NCBI GenBank assembly: GCA_016235545.1 | Contig: JACRKB010000032.1 | Location: forward strand, 1 to 64,000 | Reading direction: 5' to 3' | Source of the DNA: Verrucomicrobiota bacterium | GTDB lineage: Bacteria; Verrucomicrobiota; Verrucomicrobiia; Limisphaerales; SXTU01 | Length of the DNA: 64,000 nucleotides | Shown: piece by piece, positions 39,409 through 55,826 of the stretch | How positions within the stretch are numbered: position 1 is the first letter of the stretch | Layout: each line of letters opens with the position of its first letter | The notes under the pieces: model-generated | Seen by the model: only the letters and a program-made list of their open reading frames with translations | What the model was told of the DNA's origin: nothing | Database searches by the model: none | Made by a program: the position numbers and the translations under genes

Positions 39409-40341
39409 TCACGAGCCAAACGCCTTCAAGTCCGCCTCCGCTGCCTCAAGCTCCTGCTCCGTGTCCAGCTCCAGCCCATGCACAGGGTCGAATTGCAGCA
39501 GCAGCGCCCACTCCGGCAGCTCGTCGTAGGGCGTGGTGATCACTCGCTCGCCCCCGATGCCTTCGCTGGCCATGTGCGCGAGCGCGTCCGCGAAACCCAC
39601 GACGGCTGCGAGGAACCCGTGGTCTCCACCGTCCATTTTCAGCAGGCGCTGGTCCGTCGGGTCGTGATGAAACCACACGGCGGCGCGCACGTGGGGATGG
39701 ACTTGCAGGCAGTGGCAGAGCGCCGCGCCGACCTGGGTGTGGTCGAGGCCGAGGATTTCGCGCTCGGCGATGAAGTGACCTCGCTTGGCCATCCACGCGC
39801 GTTGGAGGATGCCCTCAAATTCCCGGGGGAAGTGGTGTTCGATGAGCAGCTTGCCGGAGTCGTGCAGCAGACCGGCCAGGTATTCCATGCCGCTGGACTG
39901 GCGGAACGCGCGGGCAATCTGGTCGCAGAGCCGGGCGACCAGCAGGCTGTGCAGCCAGAAGCGCTGCCAGTCCACCTTCACGCGCAGATGATTGAAGCGC
40001 TCCATCACGCCCAGCGACGTGGCCAGTCGGCGGATCTCCTGCGTGCCCAGCCGCAGCCCGGCGTCGGGGATGCTGCGCACCACGCCGCGTCCGTAACGCG
40101 ATGTGGAGGCGGCGCGAAGGCAGTTGGCGGCCAGCCCCGGCTCCTTGCTGATGAGGTCCGTGAGTTCATCCATGCCCACGTCATCATCCTGCGCCAGCCG
40201 CGTCAACTTGAGCACGGCGGCGGAGAAGGAGGGAAAACTTCCGCCCGTGGCGAAGACATCGAGCAGCCGGTCCCGCGCCCAGAGCTGCGAGGGGCGGGAG
40301 ACTTGGAGGTAGGAGGCGAGTGAGAGGGCAGGCGGTGGCAT
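39409..40341 (-). CDS. HDOD-domain protein
   Basis: The ATG at 40341 (MPPPALSLASYLQVSRPSQLW) gives 310 residues; the 25 residues before it in the track come from TACTTCAT-type repeats. The HDOD fold covers about residues 30-225: FPSFSAAVLKLTRLAQDDDVGMDELTDLISKEPGLAANCLRAAS, then LAGLLHDSGKLLIEHHFP and LGLDHTQVGAALCHCL. HDOD proteins are signal-output adaptors in two-component and chemotaxis or motility networks and generally lack proven catalysis. It is the last of four signalling genes on this strand, separated from the third by 113 nt of repeat. The acidic C-terminal tail ends ELEAAEADLKAFGS. Confidence 0.87.
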   Translation of the reverse strand: MPPPALSLASYLQVSRPSQLWARDRLLDVFATGGSFPSFSAAVLKLTRLAQDDDVGMDELTDLISKEPGLAANCLRAASTSRYGRGVVRSIPDAGLRLGTQEIRRLATSLGVMERFNHLRVKVDWQRFWLHSLLVARLCDQIARAFRQSSGMEYLAGLLHDSGKLLIEHHFPREFEGILQRAWMAKRGHFIAEREILGLDHTQVGAALCHCLQVHPHVRAAVWFHHDPTDQRLLKMDGGDHGFLAAVVGFADALAHMASEGIGGERVITTPYDELPEWALLLQFDPVHGLELDTEQELEAAEADLKAFGS

Positions 40342-40454
40342 GACGGGGGGAAGTATGAGGTATGAAGTATGAATGATGAAGGATGAACGGTGAGTGTTCA
40401 GCAACGCCGCATTCATCCTTCATACTTCATACTTCATAATTTTCCCGATTTGCA
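40342..40454. repeat. Inverted ATACTTCAT tandem repeat between two signalling genes
   Basis: ATGAGGTATGAAGTATGAATGATGAAGGATGA faces CATCCTTCATACTTCATACTTCAT across an 18-20 nt loop. It belongs to the same tandem family as the copy at 39355-39405 and may act as an attenuator between the genes. Confidence 0.65.
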
Positions 40455-41588
40455 TCACGCCTCGACATAGATGGGTTCCTTCACGCCGGAGAGCGCGGCG
40501 AAGTTGCGCAGCCGTTCCAGCAGGCTGGGTGTGATACGGTTCCCGGCGGCGAGGATGAGCAAGCCCCCGGTCGTGGTGACATCCGAGACGAGCACATGGC
40601 CGGGCTTCAATTCTTTGAAGGTGATGCTCGCGGTCGGCTTTGCTGCGCCCGCGCCCAGCACGGCGGCGACGGCATCCAGCATCTCCGGGTCGTAGCGTCC
40701 GGCGCGCGTGCGCAACTGCGCGATGGAATCGAGGCGGGAGTTGCCACGGGCTTCCAGTTGCGCCATGTCCACGAGCACTTTCAAAAGGCGCGCGCCGTCG
40801 GGAATCTGCTTGCCCCCCGGAGCGTCCAGAGGGAAGCCCGCGCCGTCAAAATGCTTGCTCTGGAACAACACAATCCGCGCGACCGGCTCCAGTCTCGGTA
40901 TGTGCGCGAGCAAGTTGCTCCCCGCCTCCGGCACGCGGCGCACCATCGTCTCCTCCGCCGCCGAGAGCGCCGATCCAAGGCGCGCACGCACGGCCACTTC
41001 CGCCGGGAGCGTGACCTGACCGAGGCCGTGGAGCATGGCGGCCATCTCAAGTTCCCAGACATTGGGCAGCTTCAATGCCTCTGCCACGGCGCGCATCTGC
41101 TCGCGAAGCACCTGCCCGCGCCCGAATGTCTCCGGGTCCAGCAATGAGAGGATTTCGGTGAGCGCGCGCACGCTGCCGTTGAGCGTGTGCTCCAGCAGCT
41201 CGCGCTCGGCGGTGATGAGACGGTGCTGCTCCAGCGCGGCGGTCAGCGTGGTGGCGAGCCGGTCCGGCGGGCAAGGCTTGGTGAGGAAGCGGAAGATGTT
41301 TCCCTCGTTCACGGCATCCATTGCGGTCTGCTGGTCGGCGTTGCCGGTGAGCATCACGCGCACTGTGTCTGGCCAGCGCTGCCTCACGCGTTGCAAGAGT
41401 TGGAGGCCGGTCAGCCCCGGCATCCTCATGTCCGAGACGATGACGGCAAAGGGGCCGCCCTTCTCCAGCAACGCGAGCGCCGGCTCGCCGCCCTCGGCAG
41501 TCTCGATTTGGAACTGGCGGCGCAGGCCGCGCTGAAAGCCGGCCAGGACATTCGCCTCGTCATCCACGCATAGGATTTTTTCAGTCAC
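40455..41588 (-). CDS. Response regulator with degenerate HD-GYP domain
   Basis: Start is the GTG at 41588 (VTEKILCVDDEANVLAGFQRGL), which overlaps the upstream stop by 4 nt (GTGA), giving 377 residues. The receiver (1-125) has IVSDMRMPGLTG with the phospho-acceptor Asp and FRFLTKPCPPD. The second half follows the RpfG/HD-GYP layout, but key residues are changed: the HD motif reads LHGLGQV instead of LLHDIGK, a later histidine is lost (RVPEAG), and GYP reads FDGAGFP. It therefore probably cannot cleave cyclic di-GMP and may act as a binding or scaffold protein. A C-terminal 60-residue segment (LKPGHVLVSDVTTTGGLLIL) is of a type seen after such domains. It is coupled to the REC-HDOD gene. Confidence 0.87.
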   Translation of the reverse strand: MTEKILCVDDEANVLAGFQRGLRRQFQIETAEGGEPALALLEKGGPFAVIVSDMRMPGLTGLQLLQRVRQRWPDTVRVMLTGNADQQTAMDAVNEGNIFRFLTKPCPPDRLATTLTAALEQHRLITAERELLEHTLNGSVRALTEILSLLDPETFGRGQVLREQMRAVAEALKLPNVWELEMAAMLHGLGQVTLPAEVAVRARLGSALSAAEETMVRRVPEAGSNLLAHIPRLEPVARIVLFQSKHFDGAGFPLDAPGGKQIPDGARLLKVLVDMAQLEARGNSRLDSIAQLRTRAGRYDPEMLDAVAAVLGAGAAKPTASITFKELKPGHVLVSDVTTTGGLLILAAGNRITPSLLERLRNFAALSGVKEPIYVEA

Positions 41589-42799
41589 AAGCCTCCTCCC
41601 GCTTGCACGCTTGCACGGCAGCCCTCCTGCCACGGGCCCACGCGCCCGGCCTTGCCCACGCGGACCAGGTAGTCGCTGTCAAACTCCGGGCGCCGGCCCG
41701 CCACGGCTTCCTTGTCCAGCTCGTAGGCCAGCACGTTCGCGGCGTGGACCGCCGTGAGCGGGCTGAAGGCGTTCTCGAGCGTGCGGCCCGGATGATGATG
41801 ATAGGAGACGCACTCCACGACAGGCACCGGGAGGCCCCACAGTCCGAGCAAGTAGCCGCCCACATCCGCGTGATTGCAGCCAAACACGCCGTGCTCCGCC
41901 GCAGTGAAGGAGAGGCCGCCGTCCTGCGCCAGGCGCATCGCCCGCTCATACTGCGCGCTGAAGTTCGCAGCCAGCACGAGCTTGCCGGCGTCATGCAGAA
42001 GCCCGCCGATGAACGCCTCGTCCACCAGCTTCACGTCCGCATTCTCCATGCGCGCGATGTGTTTGGCGCAGGCGGCGGTGATGAGGCTGTGGTTGCGCAG
42101 CGCGACGAGGGAGATGCCGCCCAGGTCCGTGCTCTCGTATTGCGAGAACGTGTGGAGCGAGAGCACGAGCGCCTTGATGGTGTCCAAACCCAGGTAGTTG
42201 ACCGCGTCGGATGCGTTGGCCACCCGTCGGCGCAGGCCGAAGAAGGCGGAGTTCACCAGCTTGAGCACTTGCGCGGACATGCCCACGTCCTGCGCGATGA
42301 TTTCGCCGACACGTGCGAGCGAAGCGTCTGCGGATTGCAACTCCTCGACCACCCGCAGGTAGATGACGGGAAGGCTCGGAAGCCGGCTCATCTGCGAGAC
42401 GAGGGATTTGACCTGCTCGTTGTCCAGCGAATCGCCCAGCGCGACCGCACGCTGCACCGTGGCCTTGAGCACCTCGGGTTCACAGGGCTTGTGCAGATAC
42501 TGGTGCGTGGAGCCGACGGCCTTGAGCACAAGGTCATGGTCCGCGTGGCCGGAAAGGATGATGCGGACTGTCTTGGGGAAACGCTTCATCACCTCGGTGA
42601 GGAGCTGCGCGCCGTTCATGCCGGGCATGCGCATGTCGGAGATGACCACGTCCACCGGCACGGAGGCCAGCCGCTCCAGCGCGAGCGCGCCCGATTCGAC
42701 AAACTCCATGTCCCACTCGTTGCGCATGGGCCGCAGCATCCGCTGCAAGCCCTGGAGGACCATTGACTCGTCATCCACGAAGAGCACGCGCTTCTTCAT
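41585..42799 (-). CDS. Response regulator with HDOD output domain
   Basis: The 404-residue protein has a receiver domain (KKRVLFVDDESMVLQGLQRML; phospho-acceptor in VVISDMRMPGMNG; conserved KP in YLHKPCEPE) followed by HDOD from about residue 135 (MSRLPSLPVIYLRVVEELQSADASLARVGEIIAQDVGMSAQVLKLVNSAFFGL, GGLLHDAGKLVLAANF). It overlaps the kinase gene upstream (ATGA, 4 nt) and the next regulator downstream (GTGA, 4 nt), so the three are translationally coupled. It is presumably phosphorylated by the preceding hybrid kinase. REC-HDOD proteins control motility or cyclic-nucleotide signalling in several bacteria; the target here is unknown. Confidence 0.93.
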   Translation of the reverse strand: MKKRVLFVDDESMVLQGLQRMLRPMRNEWDMEFVESGALALERLASVPVDVVISDMRMPGMNGAQLLTEVMKRFPKTVRIILSGHADHDLVLKAVGSTHQYLHKPCEPEVLKATVQRAVALGDSLDNEQVKSLVSQMSRLPSLPVIYLRVVEELQSADASLARVGEIIAQDVGMSAQVLKLVNSAFFGLRRRVANASDAVNYLGLDTIKALVLSLHTFSQYESTDLGGISLVALRNHSLITAACAKHIARMENADVKLVDEAFIGGLLHDAGKLVLAANFSAQYERAMRLAQDGGLSFTAAEHGVFGCNHADVGGYLLGLWGLPVPVVECVSYHHHPGRTLENAFSPLTAVHAANVLAYELDKEAVAGRRPEFDSDYLVRVGKAGRVGPWQEGCRASVQAGGGL

Positions 42800-45363
42800 G
42801 CCGGCCTCACTTCCCCGGTGCCCGGCGCCAGCGGCAGGCGCACGATGAAGGTGGTCCCCTTGCCCATCTCGGTCTCGAAGGTGATCGTCCCGCCGTGCTT
42901 GTCCACGACCACGGAGCGTGCGATGGCCAGCCCCTGCCCCGTGCCCTTGCCCACTTCCTTGGTGGTGAAGAACGGGTCGAAGACCTTGCCTCGCGCGTGT
43001 TCAGGTATTCCCGTGCCGCTGTCGCCAATGCGCAGCACGGCCCAGTCGCCCTCGCGGCGGGTGCGGACCGTGATGAGGCCCTTGCCCCCGGAACTGCCGA
43101 GCGTGCCGGCAATGGCATGTGCGGCGTTGACTATGATGTTGAGCACGACCTGGTTGAACTCGCCCGGCAGGCACGGCACCGGCGGCAATGAAGTGTCGAA
43201 GTCAGTTTCCATGTCAGCGAGGTATTTCCATTCGTTGCGCGCGACGGTGATCGTGCTCTCGATGGCGCGGTTCAAATCCACCGGTGTCTTGTCCTCCGAG
43301 CCGGGATGCGAGAAGTCCTTCATCGCCCGGACAATGCTCGACACGCGCTCGACACCCGCCAGCGACTCGCCAATCGCGCGGGGGATTTCGCCTTGCAGGT
43401 AGCCCACGTCCGCCGTCTCCACTGCCTCCTCGGCGGCGGTGATGATCGTCGGCGTGGGGCCGCCGTTCTTCGCAGCGGCGAGCAGGTTGCCGTGCGCGTC
43501 CAGCAGCGCCCCGAGATCGCGGAATGCATCCTGCAAGAAACGCAGGTTGTCGCCGATATACTGCGTGGGCGTGTTGATCTCGTGCGCGATGCCGGCGGCG
43601 AGCTGGCCGATGGATTCGAGCTTCTGCGCGTGGCGCAGTTGCGTCTCCAGCGCACGCCGCTGAGTCACATCCACGGCCAGCAGGATGTAGTTGAGGCGGT
43701 TCTCCACGTCCGGCTTGCTGGGCGTGACGCTCAAGTTCAGGAAGACGTCCTGATTTGGGGAATGCACGACGCGGAAGTTGTCCAATTCGAGGTGGCGGTC
43801 CGTATGCACCGATTCGCTGATGACGCCCATGAGCCTTTCCCAATCCCAGGGAATCGGCAGCGCATGGAATGGCTGCCCTATCACCGCCGCGGCTGGAAGG
43901 CCGAAGGTTTGCGCTGCCGCCTCGTTCCAACGCGCCACGCGGCCCGCCACGTCCACGCCGATGAGCACGGCGGAAATCGAGGCGAAGAGCTTCTCCGTCT
44001 CCGTGTGCATGCGGCGCATCTCCTCCTCCTGCTGCTTGCGCTCTGAGATGTCGAAGATGACGCCGTCAAGCCATCGCACGCTGCCGTCCGTGTCGAAGGC
44101 CGCCTGCCCCTTCTCATGCACCCATCGGACCGTGCCATCGCAGCGCACCAGCCGGTAGTCGGCCACGTAGGGCTGCCGGCGGTTCAGACCGTCCTGAATG
44201 GCCTGCACGATGCCAATGTCGTCCGGATGGATGATGGACTCGAACGTCTGGGTCCGTTCCTTGGTGAACTCCGAACTGGCGTAGCCGGACAACTCCCATA
44301 TCAGGTCGCTGATGAATTCGATGCGCCGCTCCGGCGGCGGCGTGCAGCGATAAACCGCGCCGGGAATATTTGAAATGAGCGAGCGGAGACGCTCATCGTT
44401 CTCGTGCGCAGCCGCCTCGACGCTCTTGCGCGCCGTCACATCACGCGCCACCAGGACGAGCTTCTCCACATCGCCACGTTCGCTGCGGATGGCGGAGCCG
44501 GTGGACTCGATCGTGCGCCACGAACCGTTCTTGTGCCGCATCCGGTATTCCACCTGGTTGTAGCCGCCTGATGCGACGGCCTCGCTCGTCGCGGCGGCCA
44601 CGCGCTCCCGGTCGTCGGGGTGGACCTGTTCGAGTGAATCGGTGCTGTTGATGTCGGATTGCGTGTAGCCCAGGACAGACCTGTAGGACGGGCTGTTGTA
44701 AAGCCGGTGGCCGTTCACATCCACGACGGAGATGAGGTCGGCGGCATTGTCGGTGATGAGCCGCAGCAACTCCTCGCTCTGCCGCAACTGCGCCTCGGAC
44801 TTGCGCCGCTCTTCCAGCTCCCACTTCACCTTGTCGAGCGCCTTGCGCGCGGCCTCGGTGCGCTCGAAGACAACGCTCTCCAGATTGGCCAGGTGGCCTT
44901 GCGCCTCGATGAAATGCTGCCACTTGGAAGTCATCGCGTTCGCAAGTTGCAGCACCTCCAGCATCTCAAAGGGTTTCTTGAGGATGATGAGCGAGTCCGT
45001 GTGGCCGAACGTCGCCAGCACCTTGGCCATCGCCGCGTCAGCCGCGCCGCTGCAAAGCACGATCTGCAATTCCGGCGAGATGTGCCACAGACGCCGCATC
45101 GTTTGATAGCCGTCCAGGCCGGGCATATACATGTCCACAAACGCCATCGCAAATGGCTGGCCGGAATTCTCCGCCACACGCGCATGCACCTCCGCCTCCT
45201 CGCCCGTGTTCGCGCTGCTCACTTGATACGGCTCTGCGGCCGGCACATGCCCCTTGGTTGCCGAAGCCGGGATGGAAAGAATCCGGCGCATGACGGAGTG
45301 GACCTGCGGGTCGTCATCCACGATCAGCACACGGCGGTTCTTTTCTGTCGGCAGGGCGCTCAT
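42796..45363 (-). CDS. Hybrid histidine kinase (REC-PAS-PAS-PAS-HisKA-HATPase)
   Basis: The ATG at 45363 (MSALPTEKNRRVLIVDDDPQVHSV) lies 13 nt after the stop of the giant gene and gives 855 residues. An N-terminal receiver (FAMAFVDMYMPGLDGYQ) is followed by three PAS domains (LITDNAADLISVVDVNGHRLYN; LISNIPGAVYRC; LFASISAVLIGVDVAGRVARWN), then HisKA with the phospho-acceptor in LAAGIAHEINTPTQYIGDNL, and HATPase (NIIVNAAHAIAG, GDSGTGIPEHARGKVF, GKGTGQGLAIARSVV). It is soluble. The REC-first order suggests it is controlled by another kinase. Overlap with the REC-HDOD gene (4 nt) makes that protein its likely phosphorylation partner. The signal is not identifiable. Confidence 0.92.
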   Translation of the reverse strand: MSALPTEKNRRVLIVDDDPQVHSVMRRILSIPASATKGHVPAAEPYQVSSANTGEEAEVHARVAENSGQPFAMAFVDMYMPGLDGYQTMRRLWHISPELQIVLCSGAADAAMAKVLATFGHTDSLIILKKPFEMLEVLQLANAMTSKWQHFIEAQGHLANLESVVFERTEAARKALDKVKWELEERRKSEAQLRQSEELLRLITDNAADLISVVDVNGHRLYNSPSYRSVLGYTQSDINSTDSLEQVHPDDRERVAAATSEAVASGGYNQVEYRMRHKNGSWRTIESTGSAIRSERGDVEKLVLVARDVTARKSVEAAAHENDERLRSLISNIPGAVYRCTPPPERRIEFISDLIWELSGYASSEFTKERTQTFESIIHPDDIGIVQAIQDGLNRRQPYVADYRLVRCDGTVRWVHEKGQAAFDTDGSVRWLDGVIFDISERKQQEEEMRRMHTETEKLFASISAVLIGVDVAGRVARWNEAAAQTFGLPAAAVIGQPFHALPIPWDWERLMGVISESVHTDRHLELDNFRVVHSPNQDVFLNLSVTPSKPDVENRLNYILLAVDVTQRRALETQLRHAQKLESIGQLAAGIAHEINTPTQYIGDNLRFLQDAFRDLGALLDAHGNLLAAAKNGGPTPTIITAAEEAVETADVGYLQGEIPRAIGESLAGVERVSSIVRAMKDFSHPGSEDKTPVDLNRAIESTITVARNEWKYLADMETDFDTSLPPVPCLPGEFNQVVLNIIVNAAHAIAGTLGSSGGKGLITVRTRREGDWAVLRIGDSGTGIPEHARGKVFDPFFTTKEVGKGTGQGLAIARSVVVDKHGGTITFETEMGKGTTFIVRLPLAPGTGEVRPA

Positions 45364-45376
45364 CGGAACGGTTTGC

Positions 45377-48300
45377 TCATGCGGCGACAGGTTGACCGGC
45401 CTCCTCCATGGCCTCCGACAGCACGCGCGCGGCGGTGGGCAGATGTGGACGAAGCGCCTCGAGGCGTTCGTTGATGGTCGCCAGCAATTCACCCGCGCTG
45501 AACGAAATCAGCCGGCGATACCAACGAACGAATTCCCGGCTCACCGCAGCTTCCCCGGCGGCAAAGGACGCGGTCTCGGTTCCCTCCACCAACTCCAGCA
45601 GCAGGCGCGCCGACTCGTGGATGGCATTTCCCCTCTGCGAGCTGCGGCGGAGCAGCGCCAGCGCCTCGCTGCTCTGCTGCGACAGCATCAACGCCTCCGC
45701 CCGCTGCACGAGCACACCGTTGTGTTCGGGGAAATGAGCAACGGCCTCGCCAGTCCAGTCAGCCGCGAACTCGATGAACTCGGGCCGGCTCAAGGCAAGC
45801 TGCCCGCCCAGCAGCCACACATGCGGCTCTTGCGCCGCGTCGCCAACCATCGCGTGCAACGTTTGCAGCGCGTCCACCACGCGACCGCGCTCGCCCAGCC
45901 ACCGTGCGAAATCAAATCGCGCCGCCCGCGCTCCGGCATCCTCCGCAAGCGCGGCCAGAAACGCCTTCTCTGTCTCGGCGTGTTGCCCCGCGCCCCACCG
46001 GCACAGCGCGAGCACATGGTGCGGCCCGGCCTTGCGGATGTCGCGGTTCACTGGCGAGAGCGTCGGCTCATCGCGCTTCGCGAGACACTGATGCATCTGC
46101 CCGGCCCCATCAGAGAACTGCTTCAGCTCCAGCGCCGCCAGGCCGGCCATGAAATGAATCGAGGCCGTCAGCCCGCCTTGCTGCGCAAGCGGTGATTCGA
46201 CCACGCGCAGCACCTCGGCGAACTCCTTCGCCGTGTGAAGGTGGCAGACATATTGGGTCAGCAATGCTTCGCGCAACTCGGGCACAACGTCTTTCTTCGG
46301 CAGCCCCGCGAGCTGACTGAAGGCTGAACGGTAGTGTTCCAACCCTTCTCGCAACTGCCCGGAGCGCACCAGCTCCAGGCCCATGTTCATCAGCAGCATC
46401 GGTTCGCCCGGCAGTTCCTCGATGGCCCGTCGCAGCAGCCGTAGATTTCGCTCTATCTTGTTCCGGTCCGCGATGACCTCCGCGCTGTAGCCGTGGTGCC
46501 GCAAGGTTGCCGTGCCCAGGCGCGTCTCCATTCCCCATGCCTCGCACTTCACGAGGATGCTTGGGAACACCTGCTCATGGACGCGCCCGTAGAAGAACAG
46601 GCCCGGCGCGTTGCGCCACAGGCGCGGCACGTAGCACTGCCCGTCCTCTTCTTGCCCGACGTTTTGCAAACGCAGCCGCACGGCCAGAACGTCGGCCGCT
46701 GCCATGTCCGCCCGCAACTTCGCGTGCTCGCAGGCCGGCAGCTCCTCGTCCGCATCGAGGAACATCACCCAGTCCCCGGTCGCGTGCGCAAGCGCCGCAT
46801 TGCGCGCCGCGCTGAAGTCGTCCTCCCACGGATGCGAATACACCTCCGCCCCGCGCATCTTCGCGATTTCCACCGTGCTGTCGGTCGAGCCGGTGTCCAC
46901 CACGATGAGCTGGTCCGCCAGGCCCCGCACAGAATCGAGGCACTGGCCAAGAAACTTTTCCTCGTTCTTGGCGATGACGAAAATGGTCAGGCGCGGCTGC
47001 CCGGCCTTTGCGGGCAGCGCGGGCCAGCGGACGTTCGAGACGCGTCCGCGCGACTGCAGAGCCTTGTGAAATCTCTTCGCGGCCCGCCAATGCGGGACAA
47101 GCTGGCGCGCGCGCGCCGCACACTCGCGCGCCATCGCCACATCGCCGGCAGCCTGCGCCGTCTCCGCAAGCAACAGCCACGCCTCGGGGTGGAACGGGCG
47201 CGCCTCCAGCGCCATCAGCGTCTCAGTCCACGCGGCGAAGTGTTGACCCCGCTGCAATGCCGCGCGCGCCACCGTCAAGTCACCGACCCGGCCCACCGGC
47301 GGCAGCTTGAGCTGAAACGTCGGCAGGCTTCCACTGGCGGTGTCACCACCCCGCGCCACGTCCGTGATGAACGGCGCGGGCGCGGGCGCCGGAGCGGCGC
47401 GCTGCCCTTCACCCGCGAAAGCCAGCAGCAGTTTCTCCCACTCGTCCCACTCGCGCTCGCGCGGAAAGTCCTTCGCCGTCGCCAGCCCGCCTTGCACCAG
47501 GCGCTCGCGCAGAGAGCGGTCGCGCATCAGCTTTTCCACCGCCTCCGCGATGGCCTCGGGCGAGCCCACCGGCACGAGCAGGCAGTTCACGCCTTCGCGG
47601 CAATACTCCCGCGCGCCTGGCGTGTCCGTGCAGACCACGGCTGCGCCGGCGGCCATCGCCTCTTGCGGCGGGCGCGGGCAGGAGTCGTAGTGGGACGCGT
47701 AGATGAGAATGTCCGCCGTGCCGAAGAGGAATGTCTTGAGTTCATCCGCCGGCGCGACGTGAAACTCGCAGGGAAACTTCGCAAAAATCTCCGGCCCGGT
47801 GCCGGAGATGCGGACAGCGGTGAAGTGCGGGCAGCGCTTCGCCAGCAGCGTCAGCGCGTCGTGGATTTCCTGAATGCCCTTGAACGTGAGCGGCTCCTCC
47901 CGCGTGCCACGCGAGTCCGGCCCAACTATGAGGAGGCGCAGCTTCGAGCCTGGCAAGGCGCGCGACAGCGGGCGGAAAACCGTCTGGTCCGTGCAGACCG
48001 GGAGAATCGCGTCGGCCTTCCGGCCCGTCGTGCGCTCGACCGCGCGGGCGAGGTTGTGAGAATTCGCCACGAAACGCACGCCCGGTGCCTGATACGACAG
48101 GCCCGACAGCTCGCGCAGCAGCCGATGCTGCTCCGTGTCCGGCAGCGTCGCATCGGCGAAGACATACTGGTCGCCCTGTGCGTAATAGACCTTCACCGGC
48201 GCGGTGACTGCCTTCAGCTCGTGTGTGTTCGTGAAGTAGGTGCTCACCACCACGTCGCTGGGCGGAACGGACGTCGCCATCCCCTGCCCTTCCGGCACGC

Positions 48301-51300
48301 GCACCACTCGCACCTGAAACTGAAACCAATCCGGCTTCTCCGTGCGCGTGACGATGGTCACGTCGTGACCCTTGCGCCGCAGCTCCTCCGCCTGCCGCAG
48401 CAGCGTCTGGTTGCCGCCAGTCACGCCGAGAATGCTCTCGATGAGATAGGTCACGCGCAGCGTGCGGTCCGGTGTGGCTGCGGCTTCACGGGGCGGCGAG
48501 GCCGGCACGGCACTGCCTTGAGCAGCGCGCAACGCACTTTCCTCCACCCTCTCATCAGCACCGGGCTTCAGCCCGGTGGAGTGCGCGGGCGAGGCAGCAG
48601 CCGTTTCAACGGCTTCTGCCCTGTCATTTCCGCCCCCGCACAGCACCGCCAGATTCTCCTTCGCAATCGCGTTGTCCGGCTCCAACTCCAGTGCGCGCGC
48701 GATGACGAGCCGTGCCGTCTCCCTGTCGCCCGCGTGCTGAAGGCAGAACGCCAGGCCCAGCAGCGTGTCCACGCAGTCGGGTGACTGTTGCAAAATGCGT
48801 CCGAAAACCTTCGCCGCATCCGCCCAGCGGCCAGCCTCGCGGTTCAGCCGCGCGAGCAGGCGCAGCGCGTCGAGATTCTCCGGCTCCAACTCCAGCGCAC
48901 GCGCCAGCGCCGCTTCGAACTCCTCGACGCGGCCAAGCTGCACGGCCGTCGTGGCCAGCTTCAAGTGCGCAGCCGCGCTCCGTGGCTTGTGCCGGACCGC
49001 CAGCACAAATTCCACTCGGGCCGGCTCCAGTTCGCCAAGCTGGAACAGCACGCTGCCCAACGCTTCGCGCAGCTCGCCAGACTCCGGCAGCAGCGCAACC
49101 GCCTGGCGAAGCGCATCCCGTGCGCCGGGCAGGTTGCCTTGGCTGAAGTGCGTTTCGGCGCGGGCAATGTGTTCACTCACAAACACAGCCGGACGCTGCG
49201 CCTCCGCCTCCGGTGCGACGCGTGCCCACACCTGCGACGCCCACTCGTGCGACGCGGCGTCGTAAGTCTTCGGATGGTTCAGCACGATGCGCGCGCGCAG
49301 CTCCGCATCGCGCTTCGCCGCCGTGGTCAGCATGCTGCCGGCCTTGATGCGATAGCGGAACAACGGCTCGGCAATCTTCCGCGCCTTGAATCCTCGCTCC
49401 GCAGCGCCAATCCAAAAATCCCAATCCTCGTAGCCCCAGACCAGGTTCGGATTGTAGCCTCCCACCGCATCGAAGACCTCACGCCGGTAGAGCGAGCAAT
49501 AGTTGAGCTGGTTGAGCGTCGCCAGTTTCGCGAGGGAGAACTCGCCAGTCTGAAATACGCCGTCGGCATCCCCGAAGCGCAGCAGGTCGGTGAAGACGAT
49601 GTGCGTGTCCGGGTTGGCTTCGAGCACCGCGACCGTCTTTGCGAGGAAGTCCGGCGCGAGCCCATCGTCGGCGTCGAGCGGGAGAATGTGTTTGCCCAGT
49701 GCGAGGGCGATGCCGTTGTTGCGCGCCATCGCAAGGCCTTGGTTTGGCTGGTTGAGCAGGTGGATTCGGTGCGATGGATTTTCGCGAATCAGCCGCTCTG
49801 CGACCGCGCTGGTGTCATCGGGGCTGCCGTCGTTGACGATGATGATTTCCCACTCGGCGTGAGTTTGAGCGAGCACGCTGGCCACGGCCTCGGGCAGCAG
49901 GTGCGCCTGCTTGAAGCACGGGATGACGACGGACACGAGCGGCGGGCAGGCCGACTTCGCGACGAGGAGCAGCTCGACTTCCTGATGGCAGGCGTTCGGG
50001 GTGAAGCCGTCGTAAGCGGCCACGTTCACTCGCTGGCCCTCGGCGAAGAGCCGCGCCAGCGTGGCGGGCGAAAGCTCGTTGCGCGCGCCGGCACGGTTGT
50101 TGAAGTCCGCTTGGACCTTGTTGACCGGCGCGCAGAACGTGAGCGACTGCGGCACGCAGAGCAGCAGCGGATGCGACTCGCGGAAACGCGGCGCGCTCTC
50201 GGCGAGGCGGGCTTCGAGCGTGTTGGGATTATTGAAGTCGAGCGACTCCAGCAGCGGGCGCAGGTCTGCCAGCCGGTAGAGCGAGCTGGAGACTTCAAGC
50301 GGATATGCGAAGTCGCAGTCCGCACCGGGCCACGCGAAGGCGAGCGTGGCCGCGCCGGGTTCAGCGAATGTCGGCAGTGCCTGCGCACGGTTGAGCGGAT
50401 AGCAATAGGTCGTGTTCCGGCCCAGCCGCAGGGAATGGCCCACCGCGCGCGGCTCGATGGCGAGCTGGGCGCTGAGTTCAGCGAGCGTGAAATCGCGGAC
50501 GAACAAGTTGTCGTCCACGAGGAAGAGAACTTGGTCCGCACCGGCAATGGATTGAAGCAGGTCGGTCTTGAAGCGCTGCTCGGCGATGAACTCGGCGGCG
50601 GGATACTCACGGGTGAGCGCGGCGTATTGGACACGGTGCGCGGTGTCGCTGGCACAGTGAAGGACACGCAGCTTCGCGCGCCCGGCGTCGCGGCAATGGC
50701 GATAGAACGAGCGGATGGTGGCGTCGAGCTGGAGCGCGCGGTCCTTCGAGAAGATGACGGCGGTGATGGCGGCTGGCTCCAGCGGCTGTGCCGACGACTT
50801 GCAGTCGCCGGCGGTTGGAGCAACCGCAACTGGACTTGGTGCGTTGCAGCAGCCACTGGTAGCGGGGGATGCGACAGACGGCGACTGCAAGTCGCCGGCA
50901 CGGGTGCGGGCGTGAGCGAGGCGGAGATACAACTCCTCCCAGCGGTCCACGACGGAATCCCACGTCAGCTTCTCCTTCCACTCGCGGTGTCCGGCTTCGG
51001 CGAGCTGGACGCGAAGGCTCTCGTTGTCGAGCAGGTGCGAGGCTTGCGCGGCCATGTCGTCGGGCGCGCAGACCACGCCGCCCTGCCACTCGCGGACGTT
51101 GCCGCAGTCGGTGGAGACAAACGGCAGGCGCGCGGCCTTCGCTTCGATGATGACCAACGGAGACGCCTCGACGTGCGAGCCGAACAGGAACACGTCGGCA
51201 CTGCGGAACGCGGCCACAACATCTTCGCGCGGCACACCGGTGAGGAAGCGCACGTTCAGGCCGGCGGCCTGCGCACGCAGCGCGGCGAGCGTGCCGCCGT

Positions 51301-54300
51301 CGTGGCCGATGAAGACCATCGTGAAGTCCGGCCGGGCCATGCGGCGGACGGTTTCGAGGACGCGCTCCTGGCCTTTGCCCGGCATGAAGTTCGCCACGCA
51401 CAGGCCGAAGTGGCGCGTGGTGAGGCGATACTTCTCCCGGAAGTTCACGGCCAGCGGGCGCGTGAACTCGTCGGTGTCCGTGCCGTTCGGGATGACGAGG
51501 CCGTTCTTCAAGCCGAGGCGTTCGCCGAACGCGAAGTCCTGGTAGGTCGCCGAGTGATAGACCGCCGCGTCGTAGAGCGGCAGCACCGCCGGCAGGAAGT
51601 CCTGAAAGTAGGCGCGAAACTGCGGCCAGCGCAGCGTGCCCGCGTCGGCGAGCGCCGAGTAGCCGCACGGCGCAAGGACGTTGGCGCGGCGCGGGCGAAG
51701 CTCTTGAAGCAGCGGCATGGCGAGGTCGGTGGCCCATTGCTGCGCGGCGTAATTCATCATCACGTCGCAGTTGAACTCGCGGAGGAACTGCTGGTAACGG
51801 GCGAACTCGCCGTTCACGCCTTCGGCCAGTTTGCCGCTGACGGCGAACTCAACGATGCCGACGCCGTTCAACTCGCGGAACGCGCGGTCCGGCAACTTTG
51901 TCGTCGCCACCGTCACGCGATGGCCACGGCGCGCGAGCCGCTCGGAGAGCTGCTGGACGACCAGCTCCGCACCGCCGGTGTGCGGGGCGTAGAACTCGAC
52001 GGTGTGCAGGAGGTTGAGGCGCGTTGAGCCGCCGGCCCGGCGCGGGGTGCGCGCTTCCGGCGTCGTGGCGCGGGAGGCGACCTGGCCGGCCTGGTAGTCG
52101 GCGCGGATGATGGCGGCGAGTTCCTCCTGCTGCTGCGCGCGCGTGCTGCCGACGCTGGCGGGATGCAGCCGAATGCGGTGCAGGACTTCGGGCAAGTTCG
52201 CCAGCTCGAAGCCGGCGAGCAGCGCGCGGGCGAAGAAGTCGTAGTCGTCCACGGAGCGGAACGCCTCGCGATACGGGCCGACCTGCTCGAAGACGGCGCG
52301 ACGAATTAGCGCGGCGCTGTTCACCATCGAGTTCAGCTTGCCGAAGGTCGCACGAATGCGGGCTGGCTCGTGCTCCAGCGGCGGGCAGCCTAGGGATTTG
52401 CCGGTGTCGTCGAAGTATTCCGCGAAGCAACCAATGGCGGCGATGTCAGCGTGCGTCTCCAGGTGGGCCACGAGCTTCGCGAGCTTGTCCGGCAACGACA
52501 GGTCATCGCTGTCGTGGTTGAGCAAATAGCGCGAGCCGGGGTGCGCGGCCATGACAGCCTCGTTGCGCGCGGCGACCTCGCCGCGATGCGACAGGGCCAG
52601 CACGCGGATGCGTGGGTCGCGCTGCGCGTAGTCGCGAGCGATGGCGAGCGTGCGGTCGGTCGAGCCGTCGTCGGCGAGGAGGATTTCAAAGTCACCGAAG
52701 GTCTGGGCCAGCAGCGAGTCGAGTGTGGTCGGCAAGTAGTGCTCGCGGTTGTAGGCGGGGATGAAGATGGAGACGAGCGGCGGGCGTGCGCTGAGGGTGG
52801 TGGCCGTCGCGACTGGTGCGGCGCACACCGCCGCAGTCCGACTCCCGCTCGCTTCCTCGGAGGAGGGGAGAGGGTTGGGGTGAGGGGTGACGTGCGGAGG
52901 CGTTGGCACCTCCCACCCCTCATCCGGCCTGCGGCCACCTTCTCCCCTCCTCCGAGGAAGGGAGAAGGCGCGTCTCGTGGCGTTCGGTTCGCATTCCGCC
53001 GACTGGCATTGGGAATTGCTAATAGTCAGCGCGCCGTGGAGTTGTGTGAACTTTTCCATCCAGATGCTGTGCAGGCGGGTTTCGCTGGCGGAGGCATCCA
53101 CGAGGTTCTCGCGGAGGATGTCGGCCACGGCGGTGGCAAGCTCGCCGGGCGAACGCATCACGACCTTCACGGCGGTGGCGGTGACGTTGCGCGTCATCTG
53201 CCATTCGCCGAGCTGGCAGTGGACTTCGCCGAAGCCGAGCGCGCCGAGGACGCGCTGGTATTTGGCTGGATACCAGCCGTCGTAGTGGACCGCCCAGGCG
53301 GCCTCGTGCGAGCCGAAGAGGTGGCGAAGGACGACTTGTTTTTGAGCGAAGCTGGGCTGCGGCTCCGTGAGCAGACGCGCAGAAGCCTCGGCGTCGGGGG
53401 TCTCGATGGTCAGGCGACCGCCGGGCTTGAGCCAGCGTTGCCAGCGGCAGAGCAGCGCGAGCGCGGTGGGGCGGTCGAAGTGCTCGAAGACGTGGTGCAG
53501 CCGGACTTCGTCCACGCTCGCGGCGGGAAGGTCGAGGCGGATGATGTCGGCGAAAATGTCCGCCGCGACGCTGGTCTGCACGGTGTGCTCGGCGGGCGGG
53601 AAGTCCACGTTCACGTAGCCATCGAAGCGCTGCTCGCCGCAGCCGAGGTGCAGGCGCAGTGGGGCGCCGGGCTGCCAGAGGTGCGCCTGCTGAAGTTGGG
53701 CCAGAAAGCTGCGCTCAGCGGAGCCGCCGCCGGTCGGCTTCCAGCGCGGCTTCGACGCCGGGGCGGGGTGCAGGTCGCGGAGAAATTTTTCAAAAAACGC
53801 CGTGGTGGAATACTCACGCACGGCGCGCTGATGGGCGCGCTCGGCGATGGCGGCGTAGCGCGGATAGTCGGCAAGGATTGCGCGCAGGATGTCTTGAAGG
53901 CGGTCCGGCTCGAAATAGACAAACTCGGTGCCCGGCTCGAAGTAGCGCTCGACGAGATTCCACGGGTCGCGCTGGCAGAGGATGAGCGAGCGGCAGAAGG
54001 CGGCCCCGAAGAGCCGCGACTTGAGCTGCGGTGCCGGCCATGTCTGGTCGGGCGCGGCGGCGAGGAGTTCCGCGCTGCCGGGCAGCGGGAGCTGGGAGAA
54101 GGCCGTGTTCTCGCGCCAGTGCGCGTGTCGCGCGACGTTTTCAATTTGCTGCCGGGTGACGAAGAGCTGGTTGTGAACAAGTGTGACGCGGGAGCGGGCG
54201 ATGAGGGAGAGCTTCTCCTGATAGCTGCAATTGAAGTCTGTCACCGCCGGGTGCCGGAGCTGCGAGACGAAGCGATGGCGGAACGGCGCGAGGTCGCGGA

Positions 54301-54724
54301 TGAGCCTGTCAATGCCGGCGGCATGGACGCCGCCGGTGTAAATGACATCGAACTCCTTCGCGCACGGCGCTGGCGTGTGGCGCTCGTTGAAGGGGAAGAA
54401 CGCGGGCGTCCAGCGGTCGGTCTCTCCCCGGCGGTTGAGCCACTCGGCGGTGAAGGGGCAGAGCGTGAGGACATTCGCGAAGCGCTCGTCGCGGTCGAGG
54501 TGATGGAAGTCGGTGGCAGACTCGGGCACCAGGAACCGGTTCGGCTCCTCGAGTTCGAGATAGACCGCGCGCTCATCGGGTGGAAGCGCGTCGAGCGCCT
54601 TGAAATCGAAGTGGCCGGCGAAGAAAGCAAAATCGCCGGCGGTCTGGCCGGCGAAGCGGGTGAAGTCGAAGTAGCGCGCGGGGTCCTCGGGGTAGGTCCG
54701 CGCATGGTCGGTGATGACACGCAT
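45377..54724 (-). CDS. Giant modular glycosyltransferase/methyltransferase/TPR protein
   Basis: About 3,115 residues. The ATG at 54724 (MRVITDHARTYPEDPARYFDFTRF) is preferred to 54769 because the 15 extra residues fall over a hairpin. Modules, numbered from 54769: CgeB/GT1-like about 1-340; SAM methyltransferase about 365-520 (RLHLGCGEQRFDGYVNVDF); GT2 about 663-900 (VSIFIPAYNREHYLPTTLDS, LLADDGSTDRT); GT4 about 917-1280; GT2-like about 1335-1590 (AVIFSKDRALQLDATI); GT2 about 1609-1865 (IIIVNDGSPDDT); TPRs about 1870-2060; GT4 about 2100-2450; GT2 about 2590-2820 (FVIAKNEEKFLGQCLDS, VVDTGSTDST); TPRs to the end. No signal peptide or transmembrane helix is seen. It follows a STELLO-like gene and flagellin on the same strand, hence a likely flagellin or surface-polymer glycosylation role. 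Three repeat-encoded linkers mark module joins. Confidence 0.9.
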   Translation of the reverse strand: MRVITDHARTYPEDPARYFDFTRFAGQTAGDFAFFAGHFDFKALDALPPDERAVYLELEEPNRFLVPESATDFHHLDRDERFANVLTLCPFTAEWLNRRGETDRWTPAFFPFNERHTPAPCAKEFDVIYTGGVHAAGIDRLIRDLAPFRHRFVSQLRHPAVTDFNCSYQEKLSLIARSRVTLVHNQLFVTRQQIENVARHAHWRENTAFSQLPLPGSAELLAAAPDQTWPAPQLKSRLFGAAFCRSLILCQRDPWNLVERYFEPGTEFVYFEPDRLQDILRAILADYPRYAAIAERAHQRAVREYSTTAFFEKFLRDLHPAPASKPRWKPTGGGSAERSFLAQLQQAHLWQPGAPLRLHLGCGEQRFDGYVNVDFPPAEHTVQTSVAADIFADIIRLDLPAASVDEVRLHHVFEHFDRPTALALLCRWQRWLKPGGRLTIETPDAEASARLLTEPQPSFAQKQVVLRHLFGSHEAAWAVHYDGWYPAKYQRVLGALGFGEVHCQLGEWQMTRNVTATAVKVVMRSPGELATAVADILRENLVDASASETRLHSIWMEKFTQLHGALTISNSQCQSAECEPNATRRAFSLPRRRGEGGRRPDEGWEVPTPPHVTPHPNPLPSSEEASGSRTAAVCAAPVATATTLSARPPLVSIFIPAYNREHYLPTTLDSLLAQTFGDFEILLADDGSTDRTLAIARDYAQRDPRIRVLALSHRGEVAARNEAVMAAHPGSRYLLNHDSDDLSLPDKLAKLVAHLETHADIAAIGCFAEYFDDTGKSLGCPPLEHEPARIRATFGKLNSMVNSAALIRRAVFEQVGPYREAFRSVDDYDFFARALLAGFELANLPEVLHRIRLHPASVGSTRAQQQEELAAIIRADYQAGQVASRATTPEARTPRRAGGSTRLNLLHTVEFYAPHTGGAELVVQQLSERLARRGHRVTVATTKLPDRAFRELNGVGIVEFAVSGKLAEGVNGEFARYQQFLREFNCDVMMNYAAQQWATDLAMPLLQELRPRRANVLAPCGYSALADAGTLRWPQFRAYFQDFLPAVLPLYDAAVYHSATYQDFAFGERLGLKNGLVIPNGTDTDEFTRPLAVNFREKYRLTTRHFGLCVANFMPGKGQERVLETVRRMARPDFTMVFIGHDGGTLAALRAQAAGLNVRFLTGVPREDVVAAFRSADVFLFGSHVEASPLVIIEAKAARLPFVSTDCGNVREWQGGVVCAPDDMAAQASHLLDNESLRVQLAEAGHREWKEKLTWDSVVDRWEELYLRLAHARTRAGDLQSPSVASPATSGCCNAPSPVAVAPTAGDCKSSAQPLEPAAITAVIFSKDRALQLDATIRSFYRHCRDAGRAKLRVLHCASDTAHRVQYAALTREYPAAEFIAEQRFKTDLLQSIAGADQVLFLVDDNLFVRDFTLAELSAQLAIEPRAVGHSLRLGRNTTYCYPLNRAQALPTFAEPGAATLAFAWPGADCDFAYPLEVSSSLYRLADLRPLLESLDFNNPNTLEARLAESAPRFRESHPLLLCVPQSLTFCAPVNKVQADFNNRAGARNELSPATLARLFAEGQRVNVAAYDGFTPNACHQEVELLLVAKSACPPLVSVVIPCFKQAHLLPEAVASVLAQTHAEWEIIIVNDGSPDDTSAVAERLIRENPSHRIHLLNQPNQGLAMARNNGIALALGKHILPLDADDGLAPDFLAKTVAVLEANPDTHIVFTDLLRFGDADGVFQTGEFSLAKLATLNQLNYCSLYRREVFDAVGGYNPNLVWGYEDWDFWIGAAERGFKARKIAEPLFRYRIKAGSMLTTAAKRDAELRARIVLNHPKTYDAASHEWASQVWARVAPEAEAQRPAVFVSEHIARAETHFSQGNLPGARDALRQAVALLPESGELREALGSVLFQLGELEPARVEFVLAVRHKPRSAAAHLKLATTAVQLGRVEEFEAALARALELEPENLDALRLLARLNREAGRWADAAKVFGRILQQSPDCVDTLLGLAFCLQHAGDRETARLVIARALELEPDNAIAKENLAVLCGGGNDRAEAVETAAASPAHSTGLKPGADERVEESALRAAQGSAVPASPPREAAATPDRTLRVTYLIESILGVTGGNQTLLRQAEELRRKGHDVTIVTRTEKPDWFQFQVRVVRVPEGQGMATSVPPSDVVVSTYFTNTHELKAVTAPVKVYYAQGDQYVFADATLPDTEQHRLLRELSGLSYQAPGVRFVANSHNLARAVERTTGRKADAILPVCTDQTVFRPLSRALPGSKLRLLIVGPDSRGTREEPLTFKGIQEIHDALTLLAKRCPHFTAVRISGTGPEIFAKFPCEFHVAPADELKTFLFGTADILIYASHYDSCPRPPQEAMAAGAAVVCTDTPGAREYCREGVNCLLVPVGSPEAIAEAVEKLMRDRSLRERLVQGGLATAKDFPREREWDEWEKLLLAFAGEGQRAAPAPAPAPFITDVARGGDTASGSLPTFQLKLPPVGRVGDLTVARAALQRGQHFAAWTETLMALEARPFHPEAWLLLAETAQAAGDVAMARECAARARQLVPHWRAAKRFHKALQSRGRVSNVRWPALPAKAGQPRLTIFVIAKNEEKFLGQCLDSVRGLADQLIVVDTGSTDSTVEIAKMRGAEVYSHPWEDDFSAARNAALAHATGDWVMFLDADEELPACEHAKLRADMAAADVLAVRLRLQNVGQEEDGQCYVPRLWRNAPGLFFYGRVHEQVFPSILVKCEAWGMETRLGTATLRHHGYSAEVIADRNKIERNLRLLRRAIEELPGEPMLLMNMGLELVRSGQLREGLEHYRSAFSQLAGLPKKDVVPELREALLTQYVCHLHTAKEFAEVLRVVESPLAQQGGLTASIHFMAGLAALELKQFSDGAGQMHQCLAKRDEPTLSPVNRDIRKAGPHHVLALCRWGAGQHAETEKAFLAALAEDAGARAARFDFARWLGERGRVVDALQTLHAMVGDAAQEPHVWLLGGQLALSRPEFIEFAADWTGEAVAHFPEHNGVLVQRAEALMLSQQSSEALALLRRSSQRGNAIHESARLLLELVEGTETASFAAGEAAVSREFVRWYRRLISFSAGELLATINERLEALRPHLPTAARVLSEAMEEAGQPVAA
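48559..48578. repeat. Perfect palindrome CACCGGGCTTCAGCCCGGTG inside the giant gene
   Basis: The arms CACCGGGCT and AGCCCGGTG are perfect complements with a 2-nt loop. The stretch is read in frame as STGLKPGAD between the TPR block and the second GT4 module. The flanking CTCCACCCTCTCATCAG is also repeat-like. Confidence 0.7.
50788..50902. repeat. Inverted pair of GTGCCGGCGACTTGCAGTCGCC repeats inside the giant gene
   Basis: TGCCGACGACTTGCAGTCGCCGGC at one end and GACGGCGACTGCAAGTCGCCGGCAC at the other form an inverted pair of about 25 bp around an 60-70 bp centre. In frame it encodes AGDLQSPSVASPATSGCCNAPS and TAGDCKSSAQP between the first GT4 and the next GT2-like module. The outer 25 bp match the intergenic copy at 26021 exactly. 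Confidence 0.8.
52850..53030. repeat. Mosaic repeat inside the giant gene, copy of the 35.05-kb intergenic element
   Basis: It contains GAGGGTTGGGGTGAGGGG, then CCGAGGAAGGGAGAAGGCGCG and GCATTGGGAATTG. It is read in frame as NSQCQSAECEPNATRRAFSL, then RRRGEGGRRPDEG and PHPNPLPSSEE, the kind of peptide obtained by translating interspersed repeats. It lies between the methyltransferase and the first GT2 module. Confidence 0.8.
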
Positions 54725-54788
54725 AAAGTTTTTCGGGCTGGGTGCGCCAGCCCGGTTGCAATCGCTCAATCCACGGCGGGAAGAGGTT

Positions 54789-55826
54789 TTAGTTGCGCTG
54801 TGCGCGGCGCACGTCGCGCACCCAGGCGAGGCCCAGCTCGAAGACGACGGGCGGGATGTAGGCCTTGCCTTGCAGGCCGAGGTAGAGGCGTTCGAGCTTC
54901 TCGACGATGTCGCCGTCGCCGAGCTTTAGTTCGAGAAGGTCGCGGCAGAACTGCGGTGTGTGCTCCATGCCGAAGACCTCGTCCTTGAGGTTGCGCCACC
55001 GGCTCTGCGGGTTGCGTTCCTGCCAGACGTAGGGCTTGCCGTAATGCACATGGTAGTCAGTCTCCATCATGATGCGCTCGGCGATGTAGGAGGCCCAGAT
55101 GTCGTCGTAGCGGCCCACGCCGACGAGGACCATGAGCAGCGGGGCCAGCTCGGCGACGAAGCCGGTGTTCTGCGTGTTGAACGGCGAGAAAGTGCCGCGC
55201 TCGACGCTCACGCCGGTGTGGAGCAGGTCGGAGAAGTGCTGGACGAGCGGCTGGTTCGTGATGCGGTCCATCGCGTCAATGTCCGGGTCGCCGAGCCACA
55301 GGCCTGCGGCGACGCCGACGCGACGGTTGGTGCAGGGGCGGAGCTGGAACGGCGCGGCGGGCTGGCGCTGCTCGTAGGAGAAGCCGCGATGAAAGACATT
55401 CGGCAAGAGCATCGTGCCGATGTTGAACCAGCCGCCGGGAAGCTGGCAGTTTGATGCGGAGATGCCGGAGTAGGGGGCGTTGAAGACCTTGTCGAAGCTC
55501 GTGAAATAGTCGTCGCCGACCGGGAGGTTGTCGTCGTCAATCGAGATGATGACCTCGGCCTTCTGGCGGATGGCTTCAAGCAACGGGAGGTTGCGCCGCA
55601 TGATTTTGTTCCAGCCGATGATTTCGGAGGACTCGTAGCCGAGGTTCGCCTGGTCCTCGTCGCTGAGATACACGGCGTTGCCGAGGGACTCGACGAAACG
55701 GCGGGTCTCGGCGTGCGGCGTCTTCTTGTCGCCAGCCACGATGATGGACACGTCGGGGCCGAGCTGGCGGTAGCGTTCGAGAACTTTGGGAACGAAAATG
55801 GTGGTGGTGATGAGGGCGGTTTTCAT
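54789..55826 (-). CDS. STELLO-like (DUF288-type) glycosyltransferase
   Basis: The ATG at 55826 (MKTALITTTIFVPKVLERYRQL) gives 345 residues. The pattern KTALITTTIFVPKVLERY, IIVAGDKKTP, VYLSDEDQANLGYESSEIIGWNKIMRRN and the metal-binding VIISIDDDNLPVGDDYF match STELLO/DUF288-type and reversibly-glycosylated-polypeptide-like transferases. The middle part (TGFVAELAPLLMVLVGVGRYDDIWASYIAERIM) contributes the acceptor side. These enzymes use nucleotide-sugar donors. It lies between flagellin (a terminator hairpin intervenes) and the giant glycosyltransferase gene, all on the same strand, so a part in flagellin or surface glycan assembly is inferred. Length is normal for the catalytic domain. Confidence 0.8.
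   Translation of the reverse strand: MKTALITTTIFVPKVLERYRQLGPDVSIIVAGDKKTPHAETRRFVESLGNAVYLSDEDQANLGYESSEIIGWNKIMRRNLPLLEAIRQKAEVIISIDDDNLPVGDDYFTSFDKVFNAPYSGISASNCQLPGGWFNIGTMLLPNVFHRGFSYEQRQPAAPFQLRPCTNRRVGVAAGLWLGDPDIDAMDRITNQPLVQHFSDLLHTGVSVERGTFSPFNTQNTGFVAELAPLLMVLVGVGRYDDIWASYIAERIMMETDYHVHYGKPYVWQERNPQSRWRNLKDEVFGMEHTPQFCRDLLELKLGDGDIVEKLERLYLGLQGKAYIPPVVFELGLAWVRDVRRAQRN

Follow-up and report, generated by a model that had tools for sequence, protein, structure and literature searches.

A giant multi-module glycosyltransferase beside flagellin in a Verrucomicrobiota bacterium: a constant C-terminal unit, variable upstream modules and palindromic repeats in the linkers

Flagellin glycans are usually made by sets of separate enzymes. 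The described systems with which the present locus can be compared include two enzymes of flagellin: GmaR adds GlcNAc to flagellin and has TPRs that are proposed to recognise it (PMC9638930), and the TPRs of FlmG have been shown to bind flagellin (PMC7591256). They also include the Rickettsia palindromic elements, in-frame palindromic insertions in unrelated genes that are read as a recognisable peptide (PMC10969869).

The locus lies in a 64,000-nucleotide stretch of DNA from a Verrucomicrobiota bacterium, all of which was analysed and which is called the window below. Its giant multi-module glycosyltransferase (GT) gene occupies 45377..54724 of the minus strand and encodes 3,115 amino acids, counted from the ATG at 54724. 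The open frame (45377..54769, minus strand) has a TTG start; the ATG is the start chosen by the codon-usage gene caller, which gives this gene the top coding score in the window, with a mean codon score above zero across every module and clearly below zero at all three repeats that it contains. A homologue is found in another genome, G056 (L035). The preliminary description of this DNA had recognised a giant gene of this kind with repeats between its modules, which the open frame, the gene caller, Pfam and the genome-wide repeat families confirm. Very long antisense open frames lie opposite it on the plus strand (46493-48784, 48788-52027 and 52451-54988); as rival genes they were rejected on codon score, and they are probably shadows of high GC content. 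Misassembly was also considered and is unlikely, because the gene lies within its 64-kb contig and the succession of flagellin, RGP-like gene and giant recurs in G056; the genomes compared are draft assemblies, and an individual contig may be in error, but the layout is seen in many of them.

Searches run module by module, each apart, resolve the chain as follows, from N to C terminus and all on the minus strand: a CgeB-like GT (Glyco_trans_1_2, PF13524; aa 1-318, 53771..54724), a methyltransferase (PF08241/PF13489; aa 339-560, 53045..53710), a GT2 (PF00535; aa 650-890, 52055..52777), a GT4 (PF13439 and PF00534; aa 910-1263, 50936..51997), a GT2-like module assigned by sequence and the module map (aa 1319-1570, 50015..50770), a second GT2 (PF00535/PF10111; aa 1596-1850, 49175..49939), a TPR block recognised by TPR models (aa 1860-2030, 48635..49147), a second GT4 (PF13579/PF00534 and the family-wide module map; aa 2097-2432, 47429..48436) and a TPR-GT2-TPR unit that ends the protein (aa 2461-3115, 45380..47344). 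The multi-module design put forward earlier, with about six GT modules, stands; Pfam and comparison with relatives give seven (one of PF13524 type, three GT2, one GT2-like and two GT4), the third GT2 sitting inside the C-terminal unit, together with one methyltransferase and the TPR blocks. The N-terminal GT module is rare, occurring in 2 of 320 genomes of the order, and stands alone as a 313-aa gene, 47% identical, in a Bauldia MAG; for the GT2-like module no homologue was found among the other giants.

The giant is preceded on the same strand by an RGP-like (reversibly glycosylated polypeptide) gene (PF03214; 54789..55871) and, beyond it, by a gene for a flagellin of 267 aa (PF00669/PF00700; 55913..56716); farther upstream are FlgL-like, FlgK and FlgI genes, and the presence of these four flagellar genes places the giant at a flagellar location. 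A run of signalling genes (HDOD, HD and PAS/histidine kinase) follows directly downstream on the same strand (window 39409-45492). The same flagellin/RGP/giant layout is found in G056, which belongs to another family of the order and has its RGP-like homologue at the same place. The contig of G056 ends within its giant, which is 3,734 aa long or longer; identity to the window protein is 68% at the N-terminus and 56% over the C-terminal stretch, and the interior differs, with FkbM and other methyltransferases, a GT11, several GT2 and one GT4. The methyltransferase module of the window giant has a 44-51% identical counterpart there, elsewhere in the chain. The RGP-like gene of G056 (L035:11362-12486) is ~86% identical to copies upstream of the giants in L076 and L078, and this identity to two genomes of another family suggests lateral transfer of glycosylation genes.

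What is constant in these proteins is the C-terminal TPR-GT2-TPR unit of ~650 aa, delimited by its order-wide occurrence, its likeness to GmaR and SunS and its predicted structure. More than 100 genomes of the order carry it at strong E-values, as a rule at the end of long frames; at E<=1e-60 it was absent from all 386 genomes sampled elsewhere in the phylum. A profile built from 40 sequences has GmaR as its best match (5.5e-47), with SunS next among natural enzymes (1.5e-32); these two are the nearest relatives of solved structure. The unit and GmaR have the motifs DTGSTD, FSAARN and DADE in common, and the DXD motif is kept, D197, A198, D199 and E200 being invariant in the 40 sequences. The structure is predicted with a mean pLDDT of 92.2 as a GT-A domain flanked by TPRs, which form a short block on its N-terminal side and a long superhelix on its C-terminal side; Foldseek places ThuS and SunS first, with the TPRs of O-GlcNAc transferase among later matches. 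Sequence and fold alike thus liken the unit to the GmaR/SunS-type GT2 protein glycosyltransferases, while its score against the SunS S-glycosyltransferase equivalog (TIGR04195) is 84.2 bits, below the cut-off of 350. Because it resembles GmaR and SunS, and because GmaR and FlmG act on or bind flagellin, priming of flagellin is, by analogy, the most likely function of the unit.

To follow the unit through the order, 40 further loci were fetched, which with the window and G056 make 42 from 21 families. The protein ends in the C-terminal unit at all 42 (in G056 the contig stops within the unit), and lengths range from 1,577 to 5,118 aa, with variable modules upstream of the unit; the longest giant seen, of 5,118 aa, is L090:222-15578 (G147). 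On profile comparison and predicted fold, every giant studied demonstrably ends in a GmaR/SunS-type GT2 between TPR blocks, and most do so in flagellar clusters. Flagellar genes (flagellin, FlgK, FlgL, FlgI, FlgH, FlgA, FlgJ, FliW and FliS) are, by our own count, present in the fetched stretch at 32 loci and were not found in it at the other 10. The latter could be read as a sign that the giant decorates a target other than flagellin, a surface glycan for example, and lies near flagellin by chance, and the upstream modules do resemble general polysaccharide GTs. The 32 flagellar clusters are spread across many families, however, and the nearest relative of the constant unit is a flagellin O-GlcNAc transferase; a non-flagellin target is accordingly quite improbable.

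We think it likely that the giant is a cytoplasmic assembler of flagellin glycan, with a constant priming unit, exchangeable extension modules and repeats inserted later. The TPRs would hold flagellin prior to export, the C-terminal GT2 would attach the first sugar, and the upstream GT modules, to judge by their families and by the multi-GT enzymes WbdA, WbbB and WsaE, would extend the glycan, which the methyltransferase may modify or cap. The order of modules along the chain need not equal the order in which sugars are added. Recombination at module borders would add, remove and exchange upstream modules, and adjacent genes would fuse or split, so that a species could change its glycan while keeping the priming unit.

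Traces of such events are visible. L093 and L098, from the same genus, are 93.6% identical over their last 1,444 residues, and the parts upstream of these, of 2,102 and 1,464 residues, bear no relation to each other; the boundary is sharp and lies a few residues N-terminal of a GT4 module. L083 and L102 resemble this pair, with a less sharp boundary. L076 has two genes, of 1,213 and 1,779 aa and 50 bp apart, that match a single L078 gene of 2,952 aa at 62-66% identity, except for ~300 differing residues around the join, and the pair fits either fusion or fission. G005 and G006 belong to the window's own genus. In G005 the C-terminal unit stands alone, as a protein of 556 aa directly after flagellin; the matching flagellar site of G006 holds a series of separate genes that encode methyltransferases, a cupin, a DegT aminotransferase and GTs. 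A module of G006 shares 86-92% identity with modules in two other families, and because identities are usually far lower, its lateral exchange is suggested. The exchange in L093/L098 and the fusion or fission in L076/L078 support the construction of giants by modular joining, as read from sequence. The earlier view of one long multi-module glycosyltransferase made from joined modules is borne out also by the occurrence of parts as separate genes in G005, the Bauldia MAG and L076/L078, and the comparison supports widening it from one gene to a family that spans the order. A stronger formulation may be offered tentatively, with something less than even confidence: that the giant is a polymorphic assembly-line enzyme, a constant flagellin-priming unit joined to interchangeable GT and methyltransferase modules, in which recombination at module borders would rewrite the flagellar glycan in one step, by a logic comparable to that of modular polyketide synthases or polymorphic toxins.

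The three palindromic repeats of the window giant are read through as linkers. R3 (52848..52964) is a pair with inverted 28-nt arms that are 93% complementary; R2 (50772..50917) is a pair read as RAGDLQSPS...GDCKSSAQP; R1 (48553..48632) consists of two short palindromes read as AVETAAASPAHSTGLKPGADE. All belong to genome-wide families: in the 5.0-Mb genome the R1 core CACCGGGCTTCAGCCCGGTG has 18 matches and the R3 core CTCCCCTCCTCCGAGGAAG 54 (each with up to one mismatch), the R2 core GGCGACTGCAAGTCGCC has 39, and the reversed control cores have none. As had been proposed, the repeats lie between recognisable modules, at aa about 588-626, 1269-1318 and 2031-2057. Linkers make up ~7% of the giant, and by our own arithmetic the chance that all three would land there is ~4e-4. 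The structure predicted for the TPR-R1-GT4 stretch is poor (mean pLDDT 52.6) and says nothing firm on disorder at the repeat. Among 83 elements sampled by region of the genome, 64 are intergenic and 11 lie in coding positions of other genes, a density that predicts ~0.02 copies for a gene of the giant's length; three are observed (P ~2e-6, a rough value from the 83 sampled elements), and such clustering fits the giant's unusual amount of tolerant linker.

The copies in other genes are instructive. Of 10 genes with R2, 9 have it in one and the same frame, with the peptide RAGDLQSP...GDCKSPA, its hosts including tsaD, gamma-glutamyltranspeptidase, an MFS transporter loop, a glycoside hydrolase and a histidine kinase, and repeats are in-frame also in aminotransferase and kinase genes. 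In its in-frame insertion in unrelated genes, with a conserved peptide, R2 resembles the elements of Rickettsia. R1 reads STGLKPGA in both genes that carry it. MFS orthologues in the genus carry the R2 peptide, a shortened form of it or other residues in its place, a pattern in which gain and erosion look alike. Ordinary genes with R2 in-frame are found at L197:1047-2159, L199:372-2147, L172:1437-2747, L204:351-2174 and L169:556-2598. A GT gene near flagellin in G006 (L126:11362-13177) also contains R2, at a junction of modules at which relatives have one module more.

The preliminary description took the repeats for relics of fusion: neighbouring genes would have lost stops and starts, and their intergenic repeats would have stayed behind as linkers. 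Relatives do hold modules as separate genes, and a two-gene/one-gene pair exists; the sampled repeats are mostly intergenic, those of the giant are confined to joins and have non-coding codon scores, and the R2 copy in L126 sits where homology to L083 skips a module. The same repeats occur in-frame, however, in single-domain enzymes in which no fusion is in question, several joins of the giant are free of repeats, and there is none in the L076 gap or at the L078 join. A homologous long gene without repeats at its joins, named beforehand as evidence that would speak against relics, has largely been found, in G056 and in the other giants, from which such palindromes are absent: a search for exact 13-nt arms, which would miss an R1-like repeat, found one palindrome among about 40 other giants, and that a short one (shorter arms were left uncounted, their chance background being too high). 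Fusion relics are on this evidence an unlikely source of the repeats, and the fusion interpretation as a whole survives in its module-joining part and not in its account of the repeats.

A further possibility is that the repeats drive module shuffling, recombination between dispersed linker copies joining one module to another. The clustering of three repeat families in one modular gene and the place of R2 in L126, where homology switches from one module to the next, would suit it; the clear swap breakpoints (L093/L098 and L083/L102) lack long palindromes, however, as does the homology break with G056 after aa 318, so that this possibility is very unlikely. The repeats most likely are later in-frame insertions of genome-wide elements and not fossils of fusion, one or more of the three of which may nevertheless predate a fusion. 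That insertion into coding sequence occurs in this genome without gene fusion follows from the in-frame copies in ordinary enzymes. Selection would remove insertions inside folded modules, and this would be why repeats persist in linkers and are seen at joins.

Throughout a bacterial order, it seems, single proteins of as many as ~5,100 residues combine a fixed priming unit with extension modules that can be swapped. Should glycan structure prove predictable from module content, these proteins would provide a code from which protein glycans can be read and a natural toolkit for their synthesis. This unrelated lineage, too, has protein-coding palindromes of the Rickettsia kind, and they collect in long modular proteins.

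No giant flagellin GT of this design was found in the literature searched, whose coverage left out most subscription journals; the nearest described systems each match a part of it. GmaR of Listeria monocytogenes (637 aa) has a GT2 of the same type and motifs as the C-terminal unit, TPRs after the GT2 and flagellin as target (PMC9638930), but it has one GT module and an antirepressor domain and no upstream GT array. The peptide S-glycosyltransferases SunS and ThuS, the best Foldseek matches of the C-terminal unit and its next-best natural enzymes by sequence, are short single-module enzymes whose substrate is a bacteriocin peptide. FlmG of Caulobacter is, like the giant, a modular TPR and GT protein, and it glycosylates flagellin in the cytoplasm (PMC7591256), but it has a single GT, a GT-B domain, in 596 aa. 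Several GT modules on one polypeptide, in some cases with a methyltransferase, are found in WbdA, WbbB, WbbM, Klebsiella O7 ORF6 and the S-layer enzyme WsaE (PMC11231755, PMC2943079); unlike the giant, these have two or three GT modules, make polysaccharide or S-layer glycan chains, and are without the constant TPR-GT2-TPR unit and the link to flagellin. The Rickettsia palindromic elements resemble the repeats in being palindromic and inserted in-frame into unrelated genes, where they give a recognisable peptide; the repeats described here differ in sequence and host, and most of their copies are intergenic.
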